A stretch of DNA of 64,000 nucleotides from a bacterium. Lineage in GTDB: Bacteria; Orphanbacterota; Orphanbacteria; Orphanbacterales; Orphanbacteraceae. Both the position numbers and the translations under genes were made by a program. Shown piece by piece: positions 50,777 to 56,375 of this stretch. The stretch covers positions 124,001-188,000 of the forward strand of contig JALGYY010000047.1 in the NCBI GenBank assembly GCA_025782575.1, written 5' to 3'. The notes under the pieces are model-generated. The model made no database searches and had not been told where the DNA came from. It saw only the letters and a list, made by a program, of their open reading frames with translations. Positions within the stretch are counted from its first letter, which is position 1. Each line of letters starts with the position of its first letter.

Positions 50777-50936
50777 AGCCGTAATACAAACACTCAAACC
50801 GGTTATTACCCGCATTTTTCATCTCCTTTGAAATACGTTTGAGTCGCTGAGGCCGTTCACTCGTCTTATGGGTGGGACGAGACTCAAACCGACGGTCCCC
50901 GATACGCCAGGTGCTTCATTCAACCCGGAGATGAGC

Positions 50937-53633
50937 ATGAAAAAGCACAGGCTGCTCATGCTGCCCCCGCTCCAGACGGTGGCAATAATTTTCACCCTTC
51001 TGATTGCGGTCAATACCTTCCCGGCTACGGCCGAGAGTTCATCTAAACGAGTTGCGGTCGCCACCAGGCTGAACGGCGCATCAATCCGACTGGACGGTTC
51101 ACTCGACGAAGATCTGTGGGAAGACGCCCTCTATACGAGCGGTTTCTTCCAAAGAGATCCGGAAGAAGGATCCCCCTCGACGGAAAGAACGGACGTAGCC
51201 TTCTTCTATGACGATCAGGCGCTATATGTCGGCGCGCGGCTCGAAAAATCAGATGGGAACGAAATCATCGCAACCGTTTCGAGGCGGGACAATCCGGGCA
51301 ATTCGGAAGCGTTCATTATTACGCTCGACACCTATCACGATCGCCGCACTTCCTACAGTTTCGCCGTAACTGCCACTGGTGTAAGGGTCGACTACTACCA
51401 TGCGAGCGATTCCGAAGGGAACCGGGACTACTCGTACGATCCGGTCTGGGAGGCGAAAGTCGCCCGTACGGAATTCGGGTGGACGGCAGAGATGCGCATC
51501 CCGTTTTCGCAGCTCCGTTTCAACGATACCGATTCACAGATCTGGGGCCTCAATATGAATCGCTGGATTCCGAACGGGAATGAAGACACCTATTGGGTTT
51601 ACATCCCCAAAAATGAAACCGGCTGGGCCTCCCGTTTCGGTGAGCTGCAGGGGATCGAGGCAATCAGGGCGTCCCGGCGGGTCGAGCTGATGCCTTACTT
51701 CGCGAGCAATGCCACAGTTACCAACGACTTCGATGAAGATGACCCGTTTACGGATGGCCGTGAACTAAAGGGCCGGATGGGGGGGGATCTCAAGATGGGT
51801 GTCGGTCCGAACCTGACGTTCGAAGCGGCGTTCAATCCTGACTTCGGCCAGGTCGAAGCGGATCCTGCCGAAGTAAACCTGAGTGCCTTCGAAACCTTCT
51901 TCGATGAAAAGCGTCCCTTCTTCATTGAAGGAAGTCAGCTGCTCGCGGGGAACGGAGCGTCCTACTTTTACTCACGACGAATCGGGGCGGCGCCTCACGG
52001 TGGCGCGGACGGCGACTTTATCAACAGTCCTGACAACACGACGATCATAGGAGCGGGTAAATTGACAGGGCGGCTCTCGAACGGCCTCTCTATCGGCGGT
52101 CTGGGAGCGATCACGTCGAGGGAGTACGCCAATACTTCGACTGCCCTCGTGGAGAAGACGGGGTCGGAGATTGATACGCTGGATGTGCGTGACAAAGTCA
52201 AAGTAGAGCCCCTGACCGGTTACGGTGTTCTCCGTCTTCAACAGGAATTTGGAGAGGACCATTCCACCGCCGGACTTTCTTTTACGGGAGTGGCGCGGGA
52301 TCTCGGCGAATCGAAGGACCTCGCATCGATACTGAACAGGCAGGCTTATGCGGGGGGTGGGGATTTGAACGTGCGGTTCCGCGGCGGAGAGTATGTACTC
52401 GGCGGTGCGGCCGGGTTCAGCTATATCGAGGGAGATAGCGCCGCGGTTCTGCGGGCGCAACGTTCGAGCAGGCGGTACTTCCAGCGCCCCGATGCCGATC
52501 ACGTTGATGTCGATTCCTCGCGCACTTCTCTCGGTGGTTACACCTATGCCAGCTGGTTCGAGCGGAACGGCGGAAAGCACTGGCTCTGGGGACTTGGAAC
52601 GTCCGGGGAGTCTCCCGGATTCGAAATCAACGACGCCGGACGGCTCCGCTCTGCCGACGACATCGAAGGATGGGCAAACCTCACCTATCGCGATAACAAG
52701 CCGGGAAAGATCTTCAGGAATTACAGCGCCAGGATCAACACCAACCACGGGTGGAACTTCGGCGGTGTGAAGCAGAATACTACGGCATCGCTCAATCTGA
52801 ACGGGACATGGGACAATTTCTGGAGCAGTTGGGCCGGCGTGTGGACCGGCTTTCGTGTGAAGAGCGACGCGTTGACACGGGGCGGCCCGCTTATGGAAAC
52901 ACTCGACGTATGGAGCGCCTGGTTCGGCACGCAAAACAGTTTTGCTTCGAATAATTCCTGGTTCTTCAATCTCGATTACGCCCGTGACGAACTCGACACC
53001 TGGAACTTCAATGTGAATGGGCGTTATGGATTCAAGCCGGGGGAGCGCTGGGAAGTCAGCCTGGAGCCTCGATACTCTCAGAGCATCGACGGCCGGCAAT
53101 TCATCACGTCCCAGGGGAGAGGTGCCGAATCGAGCCGGCCGGGCGCTACTTTCAACCGGCGCTACATCTTCTCGTGGATCGACAGGAGTACTTTGTCGAC
53201 ACAGTTCCGGTTGAATTACTCCCTTTCCCCTGATCTCTCCATCGAGGTCTACACGGAACCGTTCGCTTCGAGCGGTCGATTCTATGATTACGGCGAGCTC
53301 GAGCGGGAGGGGGGGCGCCTGCTTCAGACCTATGGGCGTGAGGGGGGGACGGAACTATCGATCGACGAGGACGGGACCCGCAGGGTGACGGATGGCGGGG
53401 AGGAATTCGAACTCGGTAACGACGACTTCAACGTCCTTTCGTTCCGGAGTAATGCTGTGCTTCGCTGGGAATGGCGGCCGGGGAGCACATTCTTCCTGGT
53501 CTGGCAGCAGAATCGAGCGGAGTCCTCTGATGAAGGGAGCCTTGTGGGCGGCAGAGATCTCTTCGATACATTCAATGGTGAGGGAGAGAACTTCTTCGCA
53601 GCCAAAATCTCCTATTGGATCCCGATTCAATAG
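50937..53633 (+). CDS. DUF5916 outer-membrane protein with family 9-like carbohydrate-binding domain
   Basis: The product is about 898 residues. After a signal peptide (about 1-28) comes a CBM9-like domain: ASIRLDGSLDEDLWEDA, FFYDDQALYVGARLE and GWTAEMRIPFSQLRF. The remaining 650 residues are a DUF5916 region with GPNLTFEAAFNPDFGQVEAD, FFDEKRPFFIEGSQ and many amphipathic strands ending in FFAAKISYWIPIQ, consistent with an outer-membrane beta-barrel. The ATG at 50937 has GGAG six bases upstream. ACTCAAACC occurs at 50792 and 50882 and an inverted copy at 50837; these could be operator sequences. Confidence 0.85.
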   Translation: MKKHRLLMLPPLQTVAIIFTLLIAVNTFPATAESSSKRVAVATRLNGASIRLDGSLDEDLWEDALYTSGFFQRDPEEGSPSTERTDVAFFYDDQALYVGARLEKSDGNEIIATVSRRDNPGNSEAFIITLDTYHDRRTSYSFAVTATGVRVDYYHASDSEGNRDYSYDPVWEAKVARTEFGWTAEMRIPFSQLRFNDTDSQIWGLNMNRWIPNGNEDTYWVYIPKNETGWASRFGELQGIEAIRASRRVELMPYFASNATVTNDFDEDDPFTDGRELKGRMGGDLKMGVGPNLTFEAAFNPDFGQVEADPAEVNLSAFETFFDEKRPFFIEGSQLLAGNGASYFYSRRIGAAPHGGADGDFINSPDNTTIIGAGKLTGRLSNGLSIGGLGAITSREYANTSTALVEKTGSEIDTLDVRDKVKVEPLTGYGVLRLQQEFGEDHSTAGLSFTGVARDLGESKDLASILNRQAYAGGGDLNVRFRGGEYVLGGAAGFSYIEGDSAAVLRAQRSSRRYFQRPDADHVDVDSSRTSLGGYTYASWFERNGGKHWLWGLGTSGESPGFEINDAGRLRSADDIEGWANLTYRDNKPGKIFRNYSARINTNHGWNFGGVKQNTTASLNLNGTWDNFWSSWAGVWTGFRVKSDALTRGGPLMETLDVWSAWFGTQNSFASNNSWFFNLDYARDELDTWNFNVNGRYGFKPGERWEVSLEPRYSQSIDGRQFITSQGRGAESSRPGATFNRRYIFSWIDRSTLSTQFRLNYSLSPDLSIEVYTEPFASSGRFYDYGELEREGGRLLQTYGREGGTELSIDEDGTRRVTDGGEEFELGNDDFNVLSFRSNAVLRWEWRPGSTFFLVWQQNRAESSDEGSLVGGRDLFDTFNGEGENFFAAKISYWIPIQ

Positions 53634-53722
53634 TCCGCATTCCGTAAGAAATTCCGTACCCTGCGCCACCAACCGACATGAGAGCCGCGTATTCCTTTCC
53701 GCGGCACTCTGAGGTGAGTGGT

Positions 53723-54694
53723 ATGCAGCAGGCAACTTGTTCCCGGACGATTAACCGCCCTGGTGCGGAAGCGGCCAGAAGGCTTCTTCTACTCGCGGTG
53801 GGCGCCATTTTGTCAGTCTGTGCGCCCGCCGCCCCTCACCTCCATGCCGGACCATGGCCACGCGAGCCTGGCGAGTCCTATATCAAACTGTCAGGAAGCT
53901 ATCTCTCCACTGGAAAGGAGAGGAACTTTCGTGGTGATCAGCTGGACATCTTCGAGGAACGGCTGAGCTATACGGATGCCCGCTATGATGACCTCAATCT
54001 GAATGCCTACGTTGAATACGGTTTGACACGAAGATTGACACTGGTCAGCCAGCTCCCCTTCAAATATGTGAGAGCGGAGAGACTGGAACTGGGAGGTGCC
54101 TACTTCGAAACCAGGCGAGTGGAGACGACCACAGCCGGCTTCGGTGACCTGGGGCTCGCGCTTCGTTATGGGTTTCTCGATCGCGGAGTAGTAGCTGCGG
54201 TACAAGGGGGTGCCAAGTTACCTCTCGGCTATGACCCGACCCCCCGGGACAGCCCCCCGCTCGGGACGGGTGAGGTCGACTACGATGTCCGGCTCCTCTT
54301 CGGAGGGAGCCTGCAACGGATTCCGGCATACTGGAGCGGTGGTGGTGGCTATCGGTATCGTGGGGGAATCTATCATAATGAGTATATCTATGAGGTTGAG
54401 TTCGGTATTACTACGACGAACTGGCTCTTCAAGATCGCACTCGATGGTATTGAGAACAGTGCGGATCCCCAGGATCTGGTCGGTGCGCCTGTGGTAACGC
54501 CCCTCCCGGGTGGAGGGGGGAGTTTTGCGGTCGTTGTAGGCGACCAGAACTACACGAAGCTGACGCCGTCGGTTTCCTATGCTATCGGACGGGGGCGCTG
54601 GTTCACGGCAGAACTCAGCACGCTTCTGGCCGGCGAAAACACGGTTGACGGAACGACACTCTCGGGAGCGTTCACATTCGCGCGATGGAGATAA
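53723..54694 (+). CDS. Outer-membrane beta-barrel protein A (paralogue of 55458-56375)
   Basis: The product is about 323 residues. A signal region ends near residue 42 (HLHAG). The mature part starts with an aromatic-rich segment (ESYIKLSGSYLSTGKERNF) and consists of alternating amphipathic strands, with the sequence TLVSQLPFKYVRAER in the first third and G-D-Q-N-Y-T-K-L-T-P near the end. It resembles the MetA/phenol-degradation-type barrel group. It lies ten bases upstream of the DUF3179 gene and has a clear paralogue just beyond it. Confidence 0.75.
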   Translation: MQQATCSRTINRPGAEAARRLLLLAVGAILSVCAPAAPHLHAGPWPREPGESYIKLSGSYLSTGKERNFRGDQLDIFEERLSYTDARYDDLNLNAYVEYGLTRRLTLVSQLPFKYVRAERLELGGAYFETRRVETTTAGFGDLGLALRYGFLDRGVVAAVQGGAKLPLGYDPTPRDSPPLGTGEVDYDVRLLFGGSLQRIPAYWSGGGGYRYRGGIYHNEYIYEVEFGITTTNWLFKIALDGIENSADPQDLVGAPVVTPLPGGGGSFAVVVGDQNYTKLTPSVSYAIGRGRWFTAELSTLLAGENTVDGTTLSGAFTFARWR

Positions 54695-54704
54695 GGAGAG
54701 GGCC

Positions 54705-55394
54705 ATGATGAGAATGCGTGATATGCGAATCGGCATGCCGGGGACTCTGGTAGTCCTTCTCGGGATTGTTGCCGGGTGCACTACGGGAGCGGATGAGATT
54801 GCGGGAGCGGGTGATGTGGCCGAGGAGGGGGATAAAATATTTATCACTGATCGGAGCGGAAAGTCCTGGGAAGTGTCTCATGCGAAAGAAGCGTACGGGT
54901 TGCAACCTGAACTGTTCCAGTTCGGCCTCGGCCCTGATGCGATCCGACCGATCAACAACGCCCGGTTCCATGAGCCCGGAGATGCCGGTTATCCGGGGAG
55001 CGAGGAGACCTTCCTGGTTCTTGCTACCAGAATCAGCGACGACGCACGGGCGTATCGAATCACTACAATGAGCAGGAATGAGGTGGCGAACGAGGTGTTC
55101 GGCGACAATCATGTCGCCCCTGCGTACTGACCTCTCGTCGACCTGGCTGCCGTGTACAGCCGCGAAATCGATGACGACGTCCTTACGCTCGCTTCGAGCG
55201 GTTGGACCTACGACTTTACCTTCGTGCTTTACGACAATCAAACCGAGAGCCTCTGGTATCATCTCCAGGGAACTACAGGGCTCACCTGCATCAGCGGGTT
55301 TTACCAGGACCGTTTTCTCCCTGAGTTCGAGTCGGTCAAAACCCGATGGAGTACGTGGGTTGCTGAGAATCCGGACACGAGAATCATGCGCTAA
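54705..55394 (+). CDS. DUF3179 lipoprotein with in-frame TGA, candidate selenoprotein
   Basis: Read through one TGA at 55128-55130, the gene encodes 229 residues. It has AAGGAG upstream of the ATG, a lipobox ending at Cys25, and DUF3179 landmarks: IRPINNARF, DDARAYRI, SRNEVANEVFGDN, V-L-Y-D-N-Q-T-E-S-L-W, TRWSTWVAENPDTRIM. The TGA (residue 142) falls in Y-TGA-P-L, where the family has Y-C-P-L-C, so the codon replaces the conserved Cys. The frame continues for 87 codons with full family similarity. The only other Cys of the mature protein apart from the lipid-linked one is Cys195. A hairpin follows 14 bases after the TGA. Other genes here end in TGA, so it is not generally reassigned. Selenocysteine is the best reading; a nonsense mutation remains possible. 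Confidence 0.75.
55145..55161 (+). promoter_or_regulatory. Candidate bacterial SECIS hairpin
   Basis: GGCTG at 55145-55149 pairs with CAGCC at 55157-55161, and a wobble pair 55144/55162 extends it. The seven-base loop CCGTGTA contains a G-U. It starts 14 bases after the in-frame TGA. The Escherichia coli fdhF element also consists of a 17-base upper hairpin a little over ten bases after its TGA. The match is positional and structural only. Confidence 0.5.
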
Positions 55395-55457
55395 CGGAGT
55401 GATCCTGCCGGGTACCCCACATCCTGTAACCGATCCACGGTGAATCTGGAGAGAGCA

Positions 55458-56375
55458 ATGCGATTGCTGCTAATTTTGCTGTGCGCGGTGGCGGCCGTAA
55501 CAGTCCCCGTCGATCTGTTTGCCGGCGCCTGGACCCAGGACGAGGGGGGGTACTATGTCAAGCTGACGGCGAACTCTCTCTCCACCACGCGGGAACGGGA
55601 TACGGATGGAAACGAAGCGGATCTCTTCAGTGAGCAGGAGGAACTACGTGACGGAAAGTTCGTCGATGTGAACTTTTCGGTCTACGCGGAGTACGGCCTT
55701 TTTCGCCACCTTACGTTGATCGGCTCTATCCCCTTCAAGTATCTGCGTTCCGAGCGTACAGAATTCGAAATCATAAACAATGAAGTGAGCTCCAACGGGA
55801 CGCTGCTGGAGGAATCGACAGTAGGTGTCGGTGATCTCAAAGCGGGACTCCGATACGACCTTCGGACGCTTCCCCTGTTTTCTCTTCTCGGCGAACGAAC
55901 TCCTCTCGCCCTGGAGGGTGGGGTGAAGATTCCTTTCGGTTACGAAGAGGCTCCGCCGGACGGCGGGCCGCCACTCGGGAACGGTGATGTGGACAGCGAC
56001 ATCAGTATCCTTCTCGGCCGGAGTCTCTGGCCGCTTCCGCTCTACTTTACGGGGAACTATGGGTTCCGTAATCGGGGGGGCGATTTTCACGACGAGGTCT
56101 TTTTCGGCGGGGAAGTGGGATACTCGAAAGGGAAGTGGCTGCTGAAGGTGAGTGTTGATGGTGTGGAGAATCGTATTGATGATGCGGAACTCAAGCGGGA
56201 TGAAGATAGCTTCGAAACGGTCGTGGGGGACCAGGATTTTCTCCATCTTACCCCCGGCTTCGCCTATGAGGTCGGCCCCGACACCTATTTTACCGCCGAT
56301 CTGATCGAGGTCATCAGCGGAAAGCAGACTCTTGAAGGCCGCACATTTTCGATCGGAGTAGCCTACACGCGGTAG
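55458..56375 (+). CDS. Outer-membrane beta-barrel protein B (paralogue of 53723-54694)
   Basis: The product is about 305 residues. A signal peptide ends near residue 23 (DLFAG). The mature chain starts GGYYVKLTANSLSTTRERD and contains TLIGSIPFKYLRSER, VEGGVKIPFGYEE-like barrel turns and G-D-Q-D-F-L-H-L-T-P. These segments align along the whole length with protein A on the other side of the DUF3179 gene, so the two arose by duplication. The ATG at 55458 has GGAGAG upstream. The three genes appear to be one transcription unit. Confidence 0.75.
   Translation: MRLLLILLCAVAAVTVPVDLFAGAWTQDEGGYYVKLTANSLSTTRERDTDGNEADLFSEQEELRDGKFVDVNFSVYAEYGLFRHLTLIGSIPFKYLRSERTEFEIINNEVSSNGTLLEESTVGVGDLKAGLRYDLRTLPLFSLLGERTPLALEGGVKIPFGYEEAPPDGGPPLGNGDVDSDISILLGRSLWPLPLYFTGNYGFRNRGGDFHDEVFFGGEVGYSKGKWLLKVSVDGVENRIDDAELKRDEDSFETVVGDQDFLHLTPGFAYEVGPDTYFTADLIEVISGKQTLEGRTFSIGVAYTR

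Follow-up and report, generated by a model that had tools for sequence, protein, structure and literature searches.

Gene content of the locus

The window, i.e., the whole stretch of 64,000 nucleotides analyzed here, carries on its forward strand a compact DUF3179 gene (54705..55394, +) for a predicted protein of 229 aa with selenocysteine (Sec) at residue 142. The gene has an ATG start, a TAA stop at 55392-55394 and a Shine-Dalgarno sequence, AAGGAG (54693..54698, +), which was read from the sequence and overlaps the stop codon of the preceding gene. Translation of the window revealed exactly one in-frame stop within this frame, a TGA at 55128..55130 (+; codon 142, U142), which falls on the conserved Cys column of DUF3179 as counted over 40 homologous sites. 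Standard-code annotation truncates the protein at residue 141, and the remainder becomes a short ORF or intergenic DNA.

With the TGA read as Cys, the protein scored 92.4 bits in a profile search with PF11376 (DUF3179), above the Pfam gathering cut-off of 27 bits, and the match spans only profile positions 2-147 of 292. Scored separately, the part before the TGA reached 18.4 bits and the part after it 51.6 bits, thus both halves carry DUF3179. The local motif is Y-TGA-P-L-V, where the Cys homologues have [YFHC]-C-P-L. These results agree with the preliminary description of this DNA, which had placed a single frame with TGA at residue 142 at the same coordinates, had seen DUF3179 similarity on both sides of it, and had noted Y-TGA-P-L in place of Y-C-P-L.

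The gene is flanked by two members of one putative outer-membrane beta-barrel family. The upstream member (53678..54694, +) ends 10 nt ahead of the start codon of the selenoprotein gene; the downstream member (55440..56375, +; an ATG at 55458 is the likelier start) is 36-38% identical to it. Pfam and NCBIfam searches of these flanking genes gave no family name; the beta-barrel assignment draws on the look of the sequences and on a weak match of the downstream product to PF13505 (OMP_b-brl), which at 24.4 bits is below the cut-off. Farther upstream, on the same strand, lies a gene for a DUF5916 protein (50868..53633, +; PF19313, 204 bits), which, judging from the spacing, is possibly part of the same transcription unit as the selenoprotein gene.

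Selenocysteine machinery of the genome

The Sec machinery, for which the preliminary description had proposed a search, proved to be complete in the genome of the window (4.88 Mb, 95% complete, 0.3% contaminated). A tRNA-Sec with anticodon tca scored 72.7 bits, and profile searches identified SelA (525 bits), SelB (379 bits) and SelD (379 bits), all four above the curated cut-offs. The SelD gene of this genome (L021, G000 C46:271946-272869) itself contains a TGA, in KAGUAAK, at the usual place of the active-site Cys; Sec-containing SelD is a well-known selenoprotein form. The same genome encodes two additional DUF3179 proteins. The paralogue at C2:931791 has a TGA at the same column, within WUPLC, and the third gene (on C11) has His at the Sec column and no stop.

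Homologues and the compact clade

A profile built from three compact orthologues was used to search 386 genomes, which yielded further members. Alignment of the homologues, also suggested in the preliminary description, showed that the Sec column is occupied by TGA in 24 of 40 homologous sites, by Cys in 13, by Ser in two and by His in one. Every in-domain TGA among these sites stands at that single column, so the placement of the TGA in the window gene is not due to chance. If TGA were a sense codon (e.g., for Trp) in this genome, or were read through by a near-cognate tRNA, its position within the frame would be accounted for. Such decoding is extremely improbable, given that TGA, already noted as a normal stop next to this gene, ends four of the 14 neighbouring genes, that the homologues have Cys but never Trp at this column, and that the Sec machinery is complete.

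The window protein belongs to a compact clade with a support of 100/99 in the tree, whose nine members come from at least two phyla: the window protein, one each from a KSB1 MAG and a Desulfosarcinaceae MAG, three from G197, and one each from G333, G106 and G053. Identity to the window protein is 63% (over the matched part) for the KSB1 orthologue and 44% for the Desulfosarcinaceae orthologue, and in both the best conserved stretch is the part downstream of the TGA. Compact members carry V, I, Q or E three residues after Sec, and full-length Sec forms carry C, T, A or S there. C195 of the window protein is not kept across the clade; therefore, a resolving Cys is not evident. The unit model matches ten longer relatives in two places, weakly in the second, which suggests that full-length DUF3179 arose by internal duplication; the window protein appears to comprise one such unit and an extra N-terminal segment (about residues 37-76).

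A pseudogene, in which TGA had replaced a Cys codon by mutation and the sequence beyond it was decaying, has a precedent in the relic of a compact gene in the related genome G001. For the window gene this reading is highly improbable and is refuted in practice by conservation across distant genomes: TGA occupies this column in each of the nine compact members, with Cys in none of them, and the downstream part is the most conserved. Close relatives with another sense codon and a decayed downstream part, an outcome that the preliminary description had envisaged, were thus not found within the clade. Third-position G+C is also similar to that of the neighbouring genes on both sides of the TGA.

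SelA and tRNA-Sec are present in G333, G106 and G053. Neither was found in G197, a MAG scored as 98% complete in which four DUF3179 genes (L071, L072, L073, L077) carry the TGA of the Sec column; this absence speaks against Sec decoding but may be an assembly gap. The compact copy of G053 (L076:3510-3941) has an upstream TAA and an early end, and hence may be decaying. The G001 relic (L078:7150-7340) is a decayed fragment of a compact gene lacking the Sec site, located between genes for a SpoIIE-like phosphatase and a beta-barrel protein. Additional compact members were sought across the phyla of G030 and G038, and none was found. The phylum of the window is represented by seven genomes in the sample, hence the small number of close relatives.

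Taken together, computation on the frame, the family, the machinery, the exchange of Sec and Cys at one column and the conservation of a Sec clade across distant genomes bears out the selenoprotein interpretation offered earlier, and we estimate the probability that the UGA at codon 142 is read as Sec at about 0.94.

A SECIS-like hairpin downstream of the UGA

A SECIS-like hairpin with a 7-pair stem position and a 5-nt loop, CGUGU, 20 nt downstream of the UGA lies at 55144..55162 (+); the innermost stem pair in the window gene is C.A. A hairpin with arms at nucleotides 17-23 and 29-35, numbered from the UGA, is common to the 24 TGA genes; this fixed register was picked after inspection of the same genes, and the loop reads CGUGU in 19 of them. 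Stem pairing across the 24 genes averaged 5.58 of 7 in comparison to 4.28 ± 0.18 in synonymous-codon shuffles. Their mean energy was -8.15 kcal/mol versus -4.10 ± 0.51 kcal/mol in the shuffles, none of which (0/300) was as good, although the set-level significance is overstated since synonymous shuffles ignore relatedness. For the Cys/Ser/His homologues the mean energy was -4.99 versus -4.36 ± 0.59 kcal/mol in shuffles, with a small excess of pairing here too (4.00 vs 3.28 ± 0.20). Covariation was also in line with the stem: 22 cells were changed on both stem sides among the 24 TGA homologues, compared to 1-12 when the partner was slid.

Taken alone, the hairpin of the window gene is unexceptional, with shuffles as good in 615 of 2000 cases by energy and in 91 of 2000 by pairs. 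The published loose bSECIS constraints (PMC13188914), applied gene by gene, did not separate the Sec genes from their Cys homologues. L029 and L035 (in G002 and G005), two paralogues in which Ser occupies the Sec column, have a strong hairpin at the SECIS position (-16.4 and -19.8 kcal/mol, matched by 4 and 0 of 20 synonymous shuffles, respectively). In the tree, both form a clade with the third DUF3179 protein of the genome of the window, the one with His at that column. These hairpins are perhaps the remnant of a lost Sec.

Predicted export signal and structure

The first 25 codons (54705..54779, +) are predicted to encode a signal peptide with the lipobox VAGC, read by eye at residues 22-25, in which C25 would be the lipidated residue; a Thr follows it. 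Of the eight members of the clade whose N-terminus is complete, six have a comparable Cys and two a hydrophobic signal. The window protein is probably exported and membrane-anchored, and its sequence is consistent with sorting to the outer membrane.

The AlphaFold2 model of the protein has a mean pLDDT of 90.6, with the domain mostly at 94-99. Its top structural matches are Rieske-type ferredoxins and NirD (Z 5.9-6.3, 92-98 residues, rmsd 2.9-3.7). Even the best of them (Z 6.3, rmsd 3.2, 98 residues aligned) has a Z below 8, which may reflect only a common arrangement. A Foldseek comparison of the model with the PDB gave no match at E ≤ 0.001, and a sequence search of the PDB gave nothing meaningful. 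The Rieske ligand motifs CxH and CxxH are absent from the 229-residue sequence. Since the Foldseek result was not significant and the cluster ligands are absent, we treat the Rieske-type resemblance of the model as a lead only. We also considered whether the CPL[C] motif might correspond to the latter part of a Rieske ligand motif (CPxH) and rejected this because residue 142 falls well before the cluster site, based on the alignment of model residues 111-218 with residues 1-97 of 1fqt. Among viral structures (BFVD), the only significant match of the model was an uncharacterised Indivirus ILV1 protein (A0A1V0SD44; E 2.3e-5, TM 0.46).

Genomic association with beta-barrel genes and possible role

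Homologues of the upstream flanking beta-barrel protein also adjoin the compact gene at L039 (51% identity, convergent) and at L071 (44%, tandem), and one lies beside the relic at L078 in G001 (40%). The compact gene is thus accompanied by members of this family in three genomes, and the relic in a fourth. In G106, a different porin-like gene, recognized by eye and without a family match, precedes the compact gene. The recurrent neighbourhood suggests a working partnership of the compact selenoprotein with the beta-barrels, and this link would be the first handle on DUF3179 function.

In the mechanism that we propose, the UGA at codon 142 would be decoded by Sec-tRNA-Sec and SelB, aided by the hairpin just downstream, so that the full 229-residue protein is made. 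The N-terminal lipoprotein signal would then export the protein, with the outer membrane as the likeliest destination, and it may act there beside the neighbouring beta-barrel proteins. The lone selenium could serve as a reactive redox centre unaided by a resolving Cys from its own motif. We regard a redox role in the envelope, with a single-Sec redox centre, as tentative, with slightly less than an even chance. Alternatively, the selenium may bind a metal or a small ligand instead of taking part in thiol-type redox chemistry, consistent with the compact clade having no conserved second Cys and having V, I, Q or E at position +3. Single-Sec peroxidases, however, can work with no resolving Cys inside the Sec motif. 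Where PMC9312934 turns to the function of prokaryotic selenoproteins, they are mostly thought to be redox-active, and we consider metal or ligand binding fairly unlikely. The most far-reaching reading, in which the compact clade would be a distinct, obligately Sec subfamily of envelope lipoproteins that works with an outer-membrane beta-barrel partner and uses one selenium on a scaffold resembling the Rieske fold, with neither a resolving Cys nor an iron-sulfur cluster, is speculative and, taken as a whole, quite unlikely.

Comparison with known DUF3179 proteins and related folds

Two reviews, PMC9312934 (2022) and PMC13188914 (2026), include DUF3179 (PF11376) among predicted selenoproteins, with the motif UxxC/T; both cite Zhang & Gladyshev 2007 (NAR 35:4952), a study on the Olavius algarvensis symbiont that is quoted here through these reviews. 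The preliminary description had been aware of no earlier DUF3179 selenoprotein; on this point it was mistaken, and the two listings rule out the window gene as the first of its kind. The compact, Sec-only form with UPL[V/I/Q/E] was not found described in the literature searched, which lay mostly outside subscription journals, and NCBIfam has no family for the window protein or its paralogue. What is new, as far as that literature shows, is a form of one unit, predicted to be exported and in most cases to be a lipoprotein, in which Sec lies within UPL[V/I/Q/E] and no second Cys is conserved. Cys homologues exist for almost every selenoprotein (PMC9312934), so the occurrence of Sec without a Cys version in the nine compact members is unusual and may point to a chemistry that needs selenium.

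With the Rieske-type ferredoxin and NirD fold the window protein shares only a weak structural likeness, and it lacks the CxH...CxxH ligands. It has the fold unit and the HE...CPL frame in common with the full-length Cys DUF3179 proteins; in contrast, these carry Cys and not Sec, usually within CPLC, and often have a second unit. Common to the window protein and the described DUF3179 selenoproteins are the Pfam family, a Sec/Cys column followed by P-L, and a Sec-using host. The window protein nevertheless departs from the UxxC or UxxT motif of the described forms, with UPLV and hence V at position +3 where they have C or T. It also consists of one unit, whereas theirs is usually the duplicated 292-position domain, and it differs from them in its extra N-terminal segment and its lipobox.
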